DNA of 64,000 nt from the NCBI RefSeq assembly GCF_024347135.1, contig NZ_AP024907.1, forward strand, positions 1,231,001 to 1,295,000, in the 5' to 3' direction. The position numbers were made by a program, and so were the translations under genes. Below the pieces are notes generated by a model. That model ran no database searches. It saw only the letters and a list, made by a program, of their open reading frames with translations, and had not been told where the DNA came from. Below, piece after piece: positions 7,327-64,000 of this stretch. Numbering within the stretch: position 1 is the stretch's first letter; every line of letters begins with the position of its first letter. The DNA comes from Vibrio spartinae. Its GTDB lineage: Bacteria; Pseudomonadota; Gammaproteobacteria; Enterobacterales; Vibrionaceae.

Positions 7327-8667
7327 AAATAAGCAGGACACGCACCTCACGGAATGGATTCGTTCAGCGGTTGAAGTTGTTCCAGGTCTTCTAAACTAGC
7401 TCTCGATGTAAATTATTTTTTGCTCGATTTTATGTCGGGGTATTGAATAATTAAGGGCAGTTTTGCATCGATAAAGATGAATCATCGGTTTGAATGGATG
7501 ACGAATGTCAGCAACGGAATTGATATTGAACGGTATTGTTCAGGAAATATGAATCCCGAGCATTCTCTGCTTTTTGAGTTGTTGTTTCGCGAGATTAAGC
7601 CGTTCGGTTGAACCGACCCAGAGTCTGGGTTTCTTTTCCAGCTCGGTGCAGAGTTTGAGGCATTCCTGCTGAGGCAGAGACAACCGCGTGAGGATATTGG
7701 GTAGGCGTTGGTGAATATAGCCCCGTTTATCTTCCCGGATTTGCCGCCCGACCCAATCGACCAATTCGATATAATCCATCAGTCGGAAAGGAATACCTTG
7801 GGGGTTATCCTGATGTTCATAGCCGATGAAATTCACTAAATTGTGGGTTTCGGTTTTTCCTTGCGCCAGTGAAGTCAGTCGGGCTTTAATCGAAGTGTAC
7901 TCAGACTGCTCGGGTGTGTCAGCCATATTTGCTCTGACCGGATTGAGGTCGACATAGGCCATCGCTGCTAACAGGGCTTTCTCATCGAGTAAAGCCTGAG
8001 ATTTAAACCGTCCTTCCCAGAATCGCCCTCTGCACTGGTCTTCGTTGTTGGCACGGACGGCAATCTCATGATTGAGCTCTTGCATAAAACAACTGAGGGA
8101 ATAGAGTCGGTGACGCCAAGTTTCAATGAGTTGGGTGCAGGCATCACGCTCAGCTTGAGAAGTCAGTTGTCCATCGAGAAGGCGCTGAATGAGCTGGGGG
8201 AGTTGATGCTCTTGTCCCCATCGTTCAATGACCTCATGGTCAGAAAGAGAGATAGCCTTCTTTTTATCGATATAGACGACCATATGGTAATGGTTACTCA
8301 TCACAGCATGGGAGCAAATCCCAATACAGTAGATAGAAGCTAATGTGAAGATACGCGATTCCACCCATTCCCGGCGATGTTCATAGGATTTACCGCAATA
8401 AGGGTCATAACCACATAGAAATGAGCGACGGACACAGCGGGAGACGATGTGATAGTAGGGCGTGACCTCGGGGCAAATGAGTTGTGAGCGGGCAGTTGTC
8501 ATGGATGCTCTCGGGATGATGATAGATGAGTCTTATCGTGGAGGATTGAGGCTGGATAGGGAATCGATTCAACCGCTGATTCCGAGTGAGTTCAAATTTA
8601 TTGGTTATCAATGGTCAGACTGATTTCATGATGATGAGAGATTGATTAGAGCGGGTGTCCTTATTTT
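7327..8667 (-). mobile_element. RAYT-type (IS200/IS605-like) element, full copy
   Basis: The element runs from the left end AATAAGCAGGACACGC (7328) to the right end GCGGGTGTCCTTATTT (8651-8666). These are imperfect inverted repeats. It encloses one HUH transposase gene transcribed leftward. TTATTTTG repeats (8661-8684), the complement of the left-flank heptamers, follow the right end. Directly beyond lies a half attC site (8686-8746), so the element or an associated deletion has removed the rest of that site. Two shorter copies sit at 9549-10045 and 28077-28523. Exact cleavage points cannot be fixed without an empty site. Confidence 0.85.
7540..8502 (-). CDS. REP-associated tyrosine (HUH/Y1) transposase
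   Basis: This 320-residue protein carries the Y1/HUH nuclease signature: HYH at residues 71-73 in SNHYHMVVYID binds the divalent metal, and Tyr183 in YVDLNPVRA is the probable nucleophile. The conserved RGRFWEGRFKSQALLD (158-173) is typical of RAYT proteins. Such enzymes cut and join single-stranded DNA at short hairpin-associated motifs. The C-terminus holds a helical extension found in the longer RAYT subgroup. The reading frame is intact, so the protein could act on the two truncated copies and perhaps on the palindromic repeats. It is bounded by the element ends, with no neighbouring accessory gene (no tnpB). Confidence 0.93.
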   Translation of the reverse strand: MTTARSQLICPEVTPYYHIVSRCVRRSFLCGYDPYCGKSYEHRREWVESRIFTLASIYCIGICSHAVMSNHYHMVVYIDKKKAISLSDHEVIERWGQEHQLPQLIQRLLDGQLTSQAERDACTQLIETWRHRLYSLSCFMQELNHEIAVRANNEDQCRGRFWEGRFKSQALLDEKALLAAMAYVDLNPVRANMADTPEQSEYTSIKARLTSLAQGKTETHNLVNFIGYEHQDNPQGIPFRLMDYIELVDWVGRQIREDKRGYIHQRLPNILTRLSLPQQECLKLCTELEKKPRLWVGSTERLNLAKQQLKKQRMLGIHIS

Positions 8668-59809: not shown

Positions 59810-59916
59810 GGAGGCCCTGGTCCTCCCGCAACACTAATTCGTGAACTTGGTCAGGACCGGAAGGTAGCAGCCACAGCGAATGACGTGTGTGCCGGGATGT
59901 GGCTGGGGCTTCCACC
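59810..59916 (+). ncRNA. ffs: 4.5S RNA of the signal recognition particle
   Basis: The highly conserved core is present: CTCCCGCAACAC, then GGTCAGGACCGGAAGGTAGC (with the GGAA tetraloop of the Ffh-binding domain), then AGCCACAGCGAATGACG, then GTGTGCCGGGATGTGGCTGG. The ends GGAGGCCCTGG and CTGGGGCTTCC pair as in the long terminal stem. The RNA binds Ffh to target membrane proteins co-translationally. It lies in the E. coli-like order after atl. An integrase remnant begins 73 bases downstream, suggesting that its 3' end served as an attachment site. Confidence 0.95.
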
Positions 59917-59988
59917 CATCTGATGTATCCTTTTTAAATCAATATCTTAGATTATGTTTAGGTCCTAGAAAGTAATTGGTACTAAATT

Positions 59989-60165
59989 ATGTTCTATCTT
60001 AGTCAATGCGACTCCGGTATCTGGTATTTCCGTTATCAAATTCCACCTCAGTATTGTTCTTATTTTAACGGGCGTGAAATCAAAAAATCTCTTCGCACTC
60101 GCTGCCGCCTTACGGCAAAATTGAGGTCTGCAACAGAGCCTTGCTTAATTCAACCAATGGCTTGA
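59989..60165 (+). pseudogene. Truncated tyrosine integrase, N-terminal arm only
   Basis: A 58-codon frame encodes MFYLSQCDSGIWYFRYQIPP, then YFNGREIKKSLRTRCRLTAK, ending soon after at a TGA. Gly-x-Trp-Tyr-Phe-Arg followed by KKSLRTR is the typical arm-binding N-terminus of phage/island tyrosine recombinases (DUF6538-like). The core-binding and catalytic domains (R...HxxR...Y) are absent. The tail overlaps the 3' end of the FHA gene on the other strand. An integrase gene directly beside ffs and pointing away from it is the usual arrangement for an island that integrated at the RNA gene. Confidence 0.65.
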
Positions 60166-61128
60166 ATCTATTTCCAACTGATTCCCCTTAATCACCTGAT
60201 AGTTCGTTGCTGCCAGTCTTATCCGTCCTCGTTTCCTTTCAATAATATTGGGGACCATCACCCCCATTGTTTCCTGCAATTCGGCCAGTTGCTTTCTAGC
60301 TCGGTGGATCTGAATGTTGATGTGGGTCTCAGATATTCCCATGTCTTTTGTTAGCTGGTCTACAGAACGCCAGCCCTGTGAGGGTTCAGGTATGTTCTGT
60401 CTTAAATCCTCCGCTTTGTAGCGTGCGAGCAGAGCCGTGAGATAATGGTGGCTTCTGGTTTGGCAATCGATACATCGCTGGCTGTCCTTGATGGTGAGTT
60501 CGGTGAGCTCCTCGTCCTGACTGATATTGAAGATGTAGCGAAAATTGCTGTCTGGCTGTGCATCTAGATATTCAGTTTCCTGTTCTTCTGAGTGAGCTCC
60601 TTTGAACAACCGCCATGCTTTGTTTGAGAACTCAAGCTGCTCGCCGTCCTTCAGTACATAGCATTGGCTACTTGTTAAATGCTCGCATTGCCACTCTTGG
60701 TTCTCTTGGTCATAGATAACAACCAGCTCTGGGGATGTATCATCGGGCAAGAAGTGGTAGCGCTTTAAGTAAATTGGTTCTAGGTGATGTGATTCATTGT
60801 TATCGTGATATGCAGGAAGAAGTATATCTTTTGGGGGCTCTAGGCTCGCGATGACGAAAGGTTCTTTCTGAGCCGAGGAAAACCAGATCTGGTCTCCACG
60901 TTTAAGCTGGTAAGGGCAATGGGTTTCGAGTCGTTCTCCATTTACACGTACACCGTTTTTACTGAGATCTCGAATATACCAGTGCTTTTTAAACTCAATG
61001 ATAGCATGAATACGGGAGACGTCCGGGAGATTAATTGTCGTGTCTACAGCGGAAGATAGTCGACCAATCTGATGAAAGGCTTTGAGGTAAATGGGGTGCT
61101 CGAGGCGAATGTTACTAAGATAAGCCAT
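60145..61128 (-). CDS. FHA-domain protein with C-terminal winged helix
   Basis: This 327-residue protein has an N-terminal forkhead-associated domain (about residues 15-95): GRLSS, then SRIHAIIEFKKHWYIRDLSK, then NGVRVNGERL, with the Arg, Ser-Arg-x-His and Asn-Gly residues that bind phosphothreonine. The middle (100-235) is unassigned and contains a CxxC (RCIDCQTRSHH). The C-terminus (about 250-315, WRSVDQLTKDMGISETHINI, HRARKQLAELQE, ERKRGRIRLAATNYQ) looks like a winged helix-turn-helix. It is therefore probably a phosphorylation-responsive regulator or adaptor. It is the last gene of the YcaO-TfuA operon, 56 bases after the preceding gene. No protein kinase is visible in the window. Confidence 0.75.
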   Translation of the reverse strand: MAYLSNIRLEHPIYLKAFHQIGRLSSAVDTTINLPDVSRIHAIIEFKKHWYIRDLSKNGVRVNGERLETHCPYQLKRGDQIWFSSAQKEPFVIASLEPPKDILLPAYHDNNESHHLEPIYLKRYHFLPDDTSPELVVIYDQENQEWQCEHLTSSQCYVLKDGEQLEFSNKAWRLFKGAHSEEQETEYLDAQPDSNFRYIFNISQDEELTELTIKDSQRCIDCQTRSHHYLTALLARYKAEDLRQNIPEPSQGWRSVDQLTKDMGISETHINIQIHRARKQLAELQETMGVMVPNIIERKRGRIRLAATNYQVIKGNQLEIDSSHWLN

Positions 61129-61184
61129 GTTTTTCTCCTGACTACTATGCGTAAGTTCACTTTAGTTGTTCGTAGAGTGTGTTG

Positions 61185-61529
61185 CTAAAGCGTGTAGCTA
61201 TATGCGTAACTGAGTGTCTCTTCGAGGGTCAGCGCATCTAACTCATCCAACAGATTCTGGTACTCGGGACTTTTCCGGATGAGCTGCTCAAAGGCGCTTT
61301 CAAGTTCGCTGTTCAGTTGCTCTATAGTTAGTGCCGCTGTATTCCACTGGTTCTGTATTTTCAGCGTTGGGCATTGTTCCTCCGAAATAAACCAAACTGA
61401 TGTCAGCGTCCAGCCAGTCTGATTAGCAAGTGGGGGAAAAATACATTTTGCGAGTTCTCGGAATTGGTGCTCCTTATCTCGGCTAATTTCTAGTGATGCG
61501 ATAATGTTCAATGGTTGTTGGGAAGTCAT
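61185..61529 (-). CDS. Unknown 114-residue protein in the YcaO-TfuA operon
   Basis: I do not recognise this protein. The start at 61529 overlaps the TfuA stop by four bases (ATGA); the longer frame to 61619 lies inside the tfuA gene. It has a mixed alpha/beta N-terminal part (LNIIASLEISRDKEHQFREL, TLTSVWFISEEQCP) and a helical, acidic C-terminal part (NSELESAFEQLIRKSPEYQN, LLDELDALTLEETLSYAYSY). There is no leader/core division or Cys/Ser/Thr-rich tail, so it does not look like a modified precursor peptide. Strict coupling to tfuA suggests a partner or adaptor of the modification enzymes. Confidence 0.65.
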   Translation of the reverse strand: MTSQQPLNIIASLEISRDKEHQFRELAKCIFPPLANQTGWTLTSVWFISEEQCPTLKIQNQWNTAALTIEQLNSELESAFEQLIRKSPEYQNLLDELDALTLEETLSYAYSYTL

Positions 61530-62887
61530 CCTTGTTCTCCTGATTGCATTTGGTATTGAAAGTCTTGTACTACGGCGCTTTTTAGTTCGTCCAGAGAGTG
61601 AAAGCCAAGTATTTGCCATACATCGTTAGGGTTTTGTGTTGGGCTATCTGGATGTTTAACGGCGAAAAACCACTCCCAGAGTTGTTGCTCATTTATGGTT
61701 AGGTCTTGTATAGCCAGCGTTGGCGCCTGTCGCTTAAAAGCGATCCGTGCCTGATAGTCAGCGTAGCGGTTGTTCAGTTTCAGAATATCCAGTATATCGC
61801 CTTCTAATTGTGGGTCGATGCTTTCCAGCCAGGCCAAAAGTGATTGTTCGTTGACGAGAAGGTCAAAATTGCACTCGTCGATACCTTGTGAGGCTAGCCA
61901 TGTGGCGAGGCGATCAAAATTCAGTGTTTGATCAATATAGGCAAATTGACGAAACGCTAGTTCAATCAGTGCGTTCTGTTGTTGGCTGCCAGTTAGCACG
62001 GGACGGTGTGACGAGGCCGTCCTCAAGGCTGATTTTCGACATAAAGCTTGCTGCTTAAGATCAAGAAAGCACCCATCAAGTTTGAGTTCGCGCACCAGTT
62101 CTTCCGGCGAGAGTGAGTGATCCGAGAGCTTTTTCTGGTAATCCAGGTGGGAGGTGAGCCTTTCCCATGTGTCTGTCCTTGCGAAGTGGTGGACTGGTTT
62201 GTTGTTGATAGCATCCTGTTTGCCATTAAAACCAGGGCTTGTATCAGTAAGTCCATTGAGGTGTTCAAGCAGCGCTACCGCATCCTGTTTTTTGATATTA
62301 ACAGTATGCTGTTCGATAAAGATTTGAAGCAACAGCGACTTTTCTTCACTGAGTAGCGCGGTGGCCTGCTGCTTTAGTTGCTGATATGTCCGTTGGGGGT
62401 AATGGTGCTGCTTTAGCACCTCTGTCAACCTCGCTTCTTCATGAGGGGTGATAATCTGGTTCTGGGTAGCGGCGGCAAGTGTAGCCCGGATGTTGACCAT
62501 TGGAACTGAGATCGCCGGATAGCCAAGTTCTGCTGGACCATGAACCAGTGCGACCTCATCATCATCCTCCAGTTCACCGGAGTGAAAGCGCTTGAATACT
62601 TCACCAAAGCCTTCCATTCCTAAGCTTGCAAGTTCTGCGGCCCTGAGAGCCCCCATACTTGCGCAGCCGTAGACGTTGATTCCAAGAGACAGGGCGTAGA
62701 GAATCTCTTTGTGCCATACCGCAGGCACGCTCTCGAAGTAGCCATCAATTAGAACGATGACCTTGGGCTTGTCGTGAGTGGCGAGATAGATATCTCCCTG
62801 TTTGGCCGGAGGCCGACAATCCGCATCAAGTAGGCGGTGTACCTCTTGTGCGGTGATCGTGGGGCCGCTGAATAGAATAATGCTCAT
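61526..62887 (-). CDS. TfuA-like protein, partner of YcaO
   Basis: The product is 453 residues from ATG 62887, overlapping the YcaO stop by four bases. The first 200 residues are a classical TfuA core: IILFSGPTI, VIVLIDGYFESVPAVWHKEI, then LYALSLGINVYGCASMGALR, AAELASLGMEGFGEVF. TfuA proteins assist YcaO in installing thioamides (trifolitoxin, thiovarsolin-type peptides, methyl-coenzyme M reductase), possibly by delivering sulfur. The C-terminal 250 residues are helical and of unknown role, making it about twice the length of minimal TfuA proteins. Confidence 0.88.
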   Translation of the reverse strand: MSIILFSGPTITAQEVHRLLDADCRPPAKQGDIYLATHDKPKVIVLIDGYFESVPAVWHKEILYALSLGINVYGCASMGALRAAELASLGMEGFGEVFKRFHSGELEDDDEVALVHGPAELGYPAISVPMVNIRATLAAATQNQIITPHEEARLTEVLKQHHYPQRTYQQLKQQATALLSEEKSLLLQIFIEQHTVNIKKQDAVALLEHLNGLTDTSPGFNGKQDAINNKPVHHFARTDTWERLTSHLDYQKKLSDHSLSPEELVRELKLDGCFLDLKQQALCRKSALRTASSHRPVLTGSQQQNALIELAFRQFAYIDQTLNFDRLATWLASQGIDECNFDLLVNEQSLLAWLESIDPQLEGDILDILKLNNRYADYQARIAFKRQAPTLAIQDLTINEQQLWEWFFAVKHPDSPTQNPNDVWQILGFHSLDELKSAVVQDFQYQMQSGEQG

Positions 62888-64000
62888 AGCCACTCTTCCT
62901 TACGTGTCAGTGACGCTATTAGCGATGTCGCTCGTTGTCCGGGAATGTATCCTGTGGTTTCATCAATGCCTTCCAGCCCTGGTACAACGACTCTGGCAAC
63001 GGGTATTTTATATTGGTTTTTTTCGAGGTTAACGACACCGACCTGAGTGATCCCAACTTGCCTCAACTTGCCTAGGACAAGCTTTATGTCATCGTCAAAA
63101 CGTTGGTGGCTCCAAGAGGGGATATCGGCAAAGTTCCTCAGGGGCCCTGCATAACTTTCAGCAGAACGGACAGCAGTGCTTTCTTCACCACGTGAATGAT
63201 AATCGTTCGCTTTAATGTCATCTCTAGAGCCGGAAATGAGGGTGAGGCGGGTTTGGGCTGCTTCAGTCAGTGCTCGCAAAAGAGCAATAGATTTACAAGG
63301 ATGGGTGCCGGAGCCAAAAGCAGGATAGCGGGGGCTAGTGGTCGCGTTTTCTGAAATAATGCGACAGAAAAAACTCGGCAACTCAATGTCAGAAGTAATA
63401 TCCCAAACTTGGATATAAACCCCCGCCTCTCGGTATTTGGCAAGGATGCTAAGGCAGTCTGAGTCGTCGATGGTGTCGAGGTTCAGCTGGCGAGCAATAG
63501 GACTATCGGCATATTTTTGTTCGAGCCTCCACAGTGTCAGCGCATCGCGCTCTATGACTTCGCAAAGCCCGTGTACGATTGCTTCGTCGAGCGTGTTTCC
63601 AGATGCCAGCCCATTTGAGCTCATGATAAATGCGCCGCTGCCGGTAGGAAGTGGCAGGGTATAGTTGCAGTGGACCACCTCATAAGGGATATGGATGGCT
63701 TGCTGAGTGAACAGTTCCTCTCCTTCTATCCAGAGCAGTTGGTTGTGGCTGGAAAAATGGCTAAAAGACAGCTTTGGTAACCTATCCACATCTATTACAT
63801 GATGGTTTTCTGAAAGCTGAGCAAGATTTGATAACCTGAGCGGCAGGTCGATATTTTCTGCATGGTAGGTTTCAATCGCTTCCATAGCGCCTGATACCTT
63901 GGCGGAAATAACATCCAGCCCCTTTCCCTGAGCGACAGAAATAGCACATGATTCAGGGCGGCACACAGTAACAACAGGAATGCCAATGTTATCGAGGCCG
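62884..64000 (-). CDS. YcaO-domain cyclodehydratase/thioamide enzyme, N-terminus outside window
   Basis: The frame stays open to the window end (reading GLDNIGIPVVTVCRP), so the gene begins beyond 64000. YcaO features are clear: SVAQGKGLDVISAKVSGAME then AIETYHAEN (ATP-binding Glu residues), VIERDALTLW, and YPAFGSGTHPCKSIALLRAL then TEAAQTRLT. YcaO enzymes phosphorylate backbone amides with ATP to form azolines or, with TfuA, thioamides. The C-terminus is not proline-rich, which favours a TfuA-assisted thioamidation type over an azoline cyclodehydratase. The substrate peptide or protein is not visible here. Confidence 0.9.
   Translation of the reverse strand, partial: GLDNIGIPVVTVCRPESCAISVAQGKGLDVISAKVSGAMEAIETYHAENIDLPLRLSNLAQLSENHHVIDVDRLPKLSFSHFSSHNQLLWIEGEELFTQQAIHIPYEVVHCNYTLPLPTGSGAFIMSSNGLASGNTLDEAIVHGLCEVIERDALTLWRLEQKYADSPIARQLNLDTIDDSDCLSILAKYREAGVYIQVWDITSDIELPSFFCRIISENATTSPRYPAFGSGTHPCKSIALLRALTEAAQTRLTLISGSRDDIKANDYHSRGEESTAVRSAESYAGPLRNFADIPSWSHQRFDDDIKLVLGKLRQVGITQVGVVNLEKNQYKIPVARVVVPGLEGIDETTGYIPGQRATSLIASLTRKEEWL

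Follow-up and report, generated by a model that had tools for sequence, protein, structure and literature searches.

Gene content of the locus

The 64,000-nt stretch of Vibrio spartinae DNA analysed here (contig NZ_AP024907.1, positions 1,231,001 to 1,295,000; the window) ends in minus-strand genes for a YcaO protein, a TfuA protein, a 114-aa protein (U114) and a protein with a forkhead-associated (FHA) domain. The original prediction described a four-gene operon in which YcaO, TfuA and the 114-aa gene are joined by ATGA overlaps and the FHA gene comes next; the junctions and the gene order are real, but two further genes, U305 and KIN, also belong to the operon, upstream of YcaO. When the window is combined with the upstream genome sequence, the minus-strand order is KIN-U305-YcaO-TfuA-U114-FHA. 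KIN (1400 aa) is a serine/threonine kinase with a degenerate cyclase, an AAA_16 domain and TPRs, and U305 (305 aa) is the proposed substrate. The operon carries its own protein kinase together with a phosphate-reading regulator, and it probably inserts sulfur into the backbone of its own protein. Window positions are followed below by those in the source genome's own locus (L002), where an L002 coordinate plus 59000 gives the window coordinate.

The YcaO gene extends from 62884 to the window end at 64000 and as a whole occupies L002:3884-5116 on the minus strand. It is cut by the window edge only, with its most likely ATG 116 nt past the edge (L002 5116); a 445-aa reading is disfavoured, as it would cross a hairpin between the U305 and YcaO genes (L002:5141-5167). 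The YcaO protein matches PF02624 (251.8 bits, E 1.3e-74), and its gene shares an ATGA overlap (GCTATGAGCA) with that of the 453-aa TfuA (61526..62887, L002:2526-3887, minus strand; PF07812, 157.5 bits, E 1.5e-46), so that two domains above the Pfam cut-off are encoded by adjacent, overlapping genes. In YcaO, residues E77, E80, E184, E187, R188, E283 and Q286, which we take to be ATP-binding, are invariant among 11 sequences. The best NCBIfam matches of the two proteins are the McrA thioglycine pair (TIGR03266 and NF033432), whose equivalog cut-offs are missed (254.6 vs 365 bits and 220.1 vs 235.2 bits, respectively). The long C-terminal extension of TfuA, to which attention had been drawn, is present here but is not peculiar to this genome: among 91 TfuA proteins in the 92 non-duplicate loci described below, 40 are at least 420 aa long, 11 have 300-420 aa and 40 are shorter than 300 aa. 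Among the operon proteins and scanned neighbours, we recognise no E1-like or dehydrogenase partner domain of the azoline-forming thiazole/oxazole-modified microcin (TOMM) systems of the SagB/C/D type, and the genes read around the operon include no azoline (SagB/C) upstream context, which had been set beforehand as refuting.

Downstream of TfuA and coupled to it by a second ATGA overlap (AGGATGACTT), U114 (61185..61529, L002:2185-2529, minus strand) is an orphan accessory protein with no Pfam or NCBIfam match above cut-off; its cluster comprises 9 loci, 2 of them copies. A relation to 236-290 aa proteins of other loci (cluster c57) is unsupported by hhalign (0.6%). After a 56-nt gap follows the gene for the 327-aa FHA protein (60145..61128, L002:1145-2128, minus strand; PF00498, 61.7 bits, E 9.4e-17). 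Across 36 sequences, its residues G22, R23, H41, N58 and G59 are invariant and S38 is nearly so, and these are presumably the phosphopeptide-binding residues. An AlphaFold2 model built from the 36 sequences (pLDDT 91) displays an FHA fold at residues 1-98, a second beta domain at 100-175 and a C-terminal domain at 197-321, the last with three strands, three helices and a beta hairpin. On model topology alone, this C-terminal layout is winged-helix-like, of the OmpR/EmbR type, and we propose that the FHA protein may serve as a transcription-factor read-out of the operon's kinase.

KIN (L002:6118-10320, minus strand) contains, by Pfam scan, a Pkinase domain (166 bits), AAA_16, an AAA ATPase of the type found in signal transduction ATPases with numerous domains (STAND), and TPRs, together with a poor cyclase match (14.9 bits, below cut-off). 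Its kinase residues K66, D165, N170 and D186-F187-G188 are invariant and H163-R164 nearly so among 13 FHA-linked KINs. In the cyclase part, the metal Asp-1, presumably the first metal-binding Asp of such enzymes, is replaced by Ile. The best NCBIfam match, TIGR03903, covers residues 59-990 with 634.3 bits, which is below the equivalog cut-off of 705.75. Upstream of KIN lies a remnant of an insertion sequence (IS), an IS-type rve_2 fragment (L002:10472-10630), and a 952-aa HTH-AAA-TPR regulator, also of STAND type (L002:12064-14922), is found two genes upstream of KIN, past a PETase-like hydrolase.

At its other end, the operon borders a plus-strand 58-aa open reading frame (59989..60165) that abuts the FHA stop and matches DUF6538 (PF20172, 39.6 bits), with the ffs gene for the small signal recognition particle RNA (59815..59911, plus strand; RF00169, 76.2 bits) as the neighbouring landmark. 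An integrase remnant at ffs had been claimed: the 58-aa match is present, while the link to integrases comes from our taking DUF6538 to be the N-terminus of phage-type integrases. This fragment between ffs and the FHA stop is a mobility trace outside the operon's machinery. On the one side searched for an island border, the ffs tail (window 59861-59990) has no convincing repeat within the next 39 kb.

Conservation and the candidate substrate

To place the operon, we surveyed 329 genomes of the family, of which 16 contain YcaO relatives at E 1e-20; with G207 and G050 excluded for having distant YcaOs only, 14 genomes carry an orthologous YcaO, the source genome included. The order KIN-U305-YcaO-TfuA is kept in all 13 others. 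The U305 profile matches exactly these 14 genomes and none of the other 315 (E 0.001). The FHA protein is found in 18 of the 329, namely the 14 plus G227, G049, G083 and G100, and 10 of the 14 have its gene linked to the operon, downstream in L002 and L021-L026 and upstream of KIN in L029-L031. The adjacency of the FHA gene, for which a search for the YcaO-TfuA-FHA triad in other genomes had been proposed, is thereby not confined to this genome: linkage in 10/14 and presence in all 14 rule out a one-genome quirk. Complete genomes differ in whether contig 1 or contig 2 carries the orthologous operon. Because the operon is so patchy (14/329 genomes), its distribution suggests gain or loss by transfer. 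In two family genomes (L034, L035), a TfuA/YcaO locus of another kind lacks KIN and includes several further genes.

For a wider comparison, one scan of species genomes (tblastn, E 1e-3) yielded 551 stretches with a YcaO relative, of which the best 80 were read (L037-L116). Together with the family loci these make 97, or 92 once five copies (L037, L038, L048, L062 and L105, of L021, L023, L031, L030 and L033) are removed. Three of the loci (L034-L036) have distant YcaO-TfuA pairs without KIN and are kept as tree rows without being counted as the same operon. By gene-call clusters, the 92 loci hold TfuA in 91, KIN in 63, a CRP-type regulator in 37, U305 in 21 and FHA in 13.

The original prediction reported no visible precursor peptide, which is true within the window and is just an effect of its edge, as U305 (L002:5188-6105, minus strand) lies directly upstream of YcaO. 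In 75 of the 92 loci, U305 included, the gene directly before YcaO lies on the same strand and encodes at most 350 aa. U305 itself has no Pfam or NCBIfam match above chance, with none in NCBIfam at E 1 even when the TIGR03795 precursor model is included. Its predicted structure has middling confidence (pLDDT 74) and no fold match in the PDB (best E 1.2), and the model suggests that the protein may consist of two similar halves. The C-terminal end (GTVCMVANLQSF) carries a motif, GxxCYxxNLxS, that is common to U305 and short proteins in the same slot elsewhere, and an alignment of the U305 profile with these short proteins by hhalign (88.7%, E 2.6e-6) covers 18 columns at the C-terminus only.

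The same slot holds several kinds of protein in other lineages. Some are short and end in a motif like GIGxxCYxxNLxSxR. Tandem-repeat peptides precede YcaO in L042, L046, L052, L054 and L059; the 308-aa slot protein of L052, an alphaproteobacterial metagenome-assembled genome, starts at 7932 and consists of about 20 near-identical AGRWA[IV][TS]P-type (AGR/ASR) units. In Azospirillum, the slot is taken by peptides (slot range about 55-110 aa) whose N-terminal part has the stretch RGADGRLY and which end, for example, in DHEAGRMIITPG. A kinship of these with the other short slot proteins was considered and rejected, as hhalign does not support it and the DGxLY motif is seen by eye only. In L118 (G049) and L119 (G083), where the order is KIN - 264 aa - ~400 aa - ~740 aa - FHA, the slot behind KIN is occupied by a recognised TOMM bacteriocin precursor: the 264-aa protein of L118 matches TIGR03795 with 91.5 bits against a cut-off of 41, and that of L119 is 98.9% identical to it. 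The next genes in L118 are an amidohydrolase and then a YcaO that best matches a SagD-type NCBIfam model below cut-off, and the operon ends YcaO-FHA. These loci (L118:4842-9077 and L119) represent a second type of YcaO operon under the same pair of KIN and FHA.

Behind the U305 stop, a hairpin keeps a constant place while its sequence differs between species. An attenuator-like hairpin in this position would yield more precursor than enzyme, as in many operons for ribosomally synthesized and post-translationally modified peptides (RiPPs). Its z-scores range from -2.4 to -3.9 in L002 and L021-L025 and from -2.7 to -4.4 in L045, L049 and L053, as compared with -0.2 to 1.3 for the U114-FHA gap as a control in L002 and L021-L025.

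Taken together, the slot, the exact co-inheritance, the hairpin, the C-terminal motif and the precursor in the L118 slot make it fairly likely, in our estimate, that U305 is the substrate of YcaO-TfuA. Several points weigh against this assignment. U305 is long for a RiPP precursor, its likeness to the short slot peptides is confined to the C-terminus, and the peptides of Azospirillum fail to align with the rest of the short slot proteins. The extension of the contig past 64000, which provided a serine/threonine kinase and a candidate substrate as had been hoped for, revealed no recognised protease or exporter in the operon. By z, L026-L033, L039, L061 and L079 have a weak hairpin or none (one can be seen by eye in L027 and L079), and the mean z over 69 loci is only -1.4, with 22 below -2; among the controls, z is -2.77 for the U114-FHA gap of L026 and under -2 for 3 of 28 windows within TfuA.

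The main rival on the substrate is that U305 is a partner or receptor of the kinase and that the target of YcaO-TfuA is encoded elsewhere in the genome. This would fit the prediction of U305 as a folded protein, if at middling confidence and with no fold match, and its lack of repeats of the tandem-peptide type. It would also fit L122 (G229), where KIN - U305 - FHA stand without an adjacent YcaO and the YcaO-TfuA operon lies on a separate contig together with a second KIN-U305. Opposed to it are the 329 genomes, in which U305 never occurs without the YcaO (14/14 and 0/315), the recognised TOMM precursor behind KIN in L118/L119, and the short or tandem-repeat peptides that often hold the slot before YcaO in other lineages. 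We regard this alternative as possible, with perhaps a quarter of our belief, and retain U305 as the preferred substrate.

A further protein family accompanies related YcaO-TfuA pairs in L076, L094, L095, L097, L104, L107, L109, L112, L114 and L116, where clustered proteins, 243-458 aa long by the gene calls, follow the pair; the L076 copy has HEVGH, an HExxH motif, and no Pfam match. This family might itself be a substrate.

Kinase with FHA, cyclase with CRP

The presence of an FHA gene in the operon is explained by the kinase that lies outside the window. Of 30 FHA loci, 27 have a kinase gene adjacent to the FHA gene or within its operon, namely all 13 that are YcaO-linked, 6 of the 8 loci L117-L124 (exceptions L121 and L123) and 8 of the 9 loci L131-L139. 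The last set comes from distant gammaproteobacteria, with FHA matches in 5/369 class genomes (source genome included) and in 7/18 genomes of a single genus, with three genomes common to the two counts; in the ninth locus, L136, the contig ends 0.6 kb behind the FHA gene. A 101-aa FHA fragment in L053, near a second, cut KIN, was left out of the 30. Phosphorylation control, as originally suggested from the FHA protein, is supported by this pairing and by a first gene that encodes a serine/threonine kinase with its catalytic residues.

Because 27 of the 30 FHA loci adjoin a kinase, kinase and FHA appear to be the constant part, and what lies between them varies. In L117 (G227), KIN and FHA flank proteins of 484 and 237 aa; L118 and L119 have the TOMM precursor arrangement described above; and in L120 (G100) FHA and KIN stand next to each other in the order FHA - KIN, with the KIN gene in three pieces. 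KIN and FHA together look like a regulatory module that can be exchanged, with U305-YcaO-TfuA as its cargo. Two observations concern the surroundings of such pairs: convergent proteins of 150-190 aa, sometimes two in tandem, lie behind the FHA-paired kinase in L131, L134, L135 and L137-L139, and beside the KIN-U305-YcaO-TfuA operon of L053 a second stretch (L053:13131-21217) contains a second YcaO (689 aa), the FHA fragment, an amidohydrolase-like gene and the cut KIN.

Across phyla, the output part of KIN in the YcaO loci changes together with the neighbouring regulator. KINs of FHA loci have Pkinase in 13/13 and a cyclase in 4/13 at E 0.01, weakly (best 5e-5), KINs of CRP loci have Pkinase in 0/29 and a cyclase in 27/29, and the remaining 26 KIN-type proteins have Pkinase in 23 and a cyclase in 6. 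The cyclase metal Asp-1 is present in 26/26 CRP-linked rows vs 0/12 FHA-linked ones (one of the 12, L066, is without a cyclase there); this comparison leaves out six KINs without a recognised Walker A, including L079 (FHA) and L054, L083 and L101 (CRP). The CRP proteins carry a cyclic-nucleotide-type phosphate-binding pattern in 37/37 by a loose pattern of our own making, and the CRP gene directly follows TfuA on the same strand in 32/37, with two after KIN and three on the opposite strand. Scored over the 65 loci with a KIN-type match, 13 have kinase and FHA, 20 the kinase alone, 29 CRP and no kinase, and three neither, whereas neither FHA without kinase nor CRP with kinase occurs (0/65). One of the three, L033, is scored as kinase-less although its KIN is cut by the contig end, which leaves two true loci of the last kind (L055 and L108), both without FHA. 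On the YcaO tree, the states change 5 times for FHA, 3 times for CRP and 5 times for the kinase. We interpret these counts as a single sensor scaffold that can carry either of two interchangeable output units; the pattern is seen, but a rule is not thereby proved. In other lineages, a cyclase takes over from the kinase as the output, and we propose that the local CRP-type regulator reads it.

On this basis, we suggest how the operon might work. A cue would be sensed through the STAND ATPase/TPR part of KIN, and the N-terminal serine/threonine kinase would then fire; the domains are observed. The phosphothreonine made by KIN, most simply on its own activation loop, would be bound by the FHA domain, a pairing suggested by co-occurrence, and the winged-helix-like domain of the FHA protein would then alter transcription, presumably of its own operon. 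By the chemistry of their families, YcaO and TfuA would turn at least one backbone amide, in U305 or in a portion of that protein, into a thioamide. A self-regulated YcaO-TfuA modification operon of this kind, KIN-U305-YcaO-TfuA-U114-FHA, with an exchangeable KIN and FHA module and a swap to cyclase and CRP elsewhere, is in our judgement somewhat better than an even bet.

Several results pull the other way. The FHA gene is unlinked from the operon in 4 of the 14 genomes (L027, L028, L032 and L033): G102 and G229 have it on another contig, G045 has it 18 kb off, and in G080 it lies next to a KIN start on another contig. The pairs test on the YcaO tree has too few independent pairs (fewer than six informative ones) to be able to reach significance, Fisher values, which take no account of relatedness, do not count as proof, and 20 of the 33 kinase-bearing loci are without FHA in the stretch read, three of those genomes having it elsewhere. 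The winged-helix part has no Pfam match and only weak, sigma-region-4-like PDB sequence hits. Fold searches with Foldseek and VIA-align list the FHA part only, so they barely test the C-terminal part, and folds or families missing from their lists are not thereby excluded.

An extension of this scheme is a thioamide-peptide circuit, in which modified U305 or the slot peptide would be the ligand of the co-encoded STAND/TPR sensor and would fire kinase/FHA or cyclase/CRP; we hold it to be rather unlikely. Doubtful to a greater degree is that FHA and KIN are a general signalling pair merely parked beside modification operons without regulating them. The pair does occur with cargo of unknown function (the 484- and 237-aa proteins of L117; L131-L135 and L137-L139), and FHA lacks an adjacent kinase in L121 and L123, but all 14 genomes with the YcaO retain FHA even if unlinked, and loci with cyclase and CRP lack both kinase and FHA, the CRP state having changed three or more times on the tree. 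Least probable is the alternative first raised from the window, that the FHA protein brings a phosphorylated substrate to YcaO-TfuA: FHA is the last operon gene in 7/14 family genomes, follows TfuA in L066 and keeps its phospho-binding residues, but it stays with a kinase where the YcaO-TfuA pair is absent (L117-L120, L131-L135 and L137-L139) or on another contig (L122), its FHA domain appears fused to a winged-helix-like domain in the model, and 79 of the 92 non-duplicate YcaO loci are without FHA in the stretch read.

Comparison with known systems

Among open-licence papers, whose silence is not proof of absence, we find none that joins YcaO and TfuA with FHA or YcaO with forkhead-associated, none with TIGR03903, and none joining RiPP, FHA domain, kinase and precursor peptide. 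By term search, the main text of the TfuA survey PMC8120280 makes no mention of kinase, cyclase, Vibrio or Azospirillum. That TOMM operons come with kinase/cyclase fusions is evident from the NCBIfam name; we found no description of such fusions paired with an FHA or CRP regulator and with cargo of the TfuA type. Whereas TfuA-associated YcaO operons have mostly been mined for products, here they show a dedicated signalling front end, and the output part, which seems to be exchanged as a whole (kinase plus FHA, cyclase plus CRP), offers a testable case of STAND sensor rewiring. The analysis also predicts a substrate for an orphan group of YcaO-TfuA pairs, and the short tandem-repeat slot peptides are ready candidates for new thioamides.

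The closest relative of KIN is the fusion described by TIGR03903, which it matches over residues 59-990 with its kinase catalytic residues kept. The name of that family, 'TOMM system kinase/cyclase fusion protein', links KIN to peptide-modifying YcaO systems. In contrast to the family, KIN scores below cut-off, its cyclase is without the metal Asp-1 and its cargo is YcaO-TfuA with U305; to our knowledge, the TIGR03903 description also has no FHA partner. In their adjacent, ATGA-coupled genes, YcaO and TfuA resemble the thioamide-forming pairs of McrA thioglycine enzymes and of thioviridamide- and thiovarsolin-type RiPP clusters, although both score below the cut-offs of the McrA pair.

A link between YcaO-TfuA and cyclases is already in print, as the portion of PMC8939145 on branch 6 ATP-grasp (graspetide) loci lists adenylate cyclases in the gene content of these complex loci and connects those ATP-grasp enzymes with YcaO and TfuA. 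That portion names no FHA or CRP pairing, and, unlike the loci it describes, L002 has no recognised ATP-grasp ligase. For the FHA protein, the nearest known counterpart is EmbR, the Mycobacterium FHA transcription factor (PDB 2fez, 2ff4), with which it appears to share an FHA domain fold of the phosphothreonine type: for the FHA part, EmbR ranks first in Foldseek and ties for first with CEP170 in VIA-align. The likeness of its putative DNA-binding part to that of EmbR is one of model topology, and the order of the domains differs, the FHA domain being N-terminal here and C-terminal in EmbR, where the alignment falls at residues 289-382.

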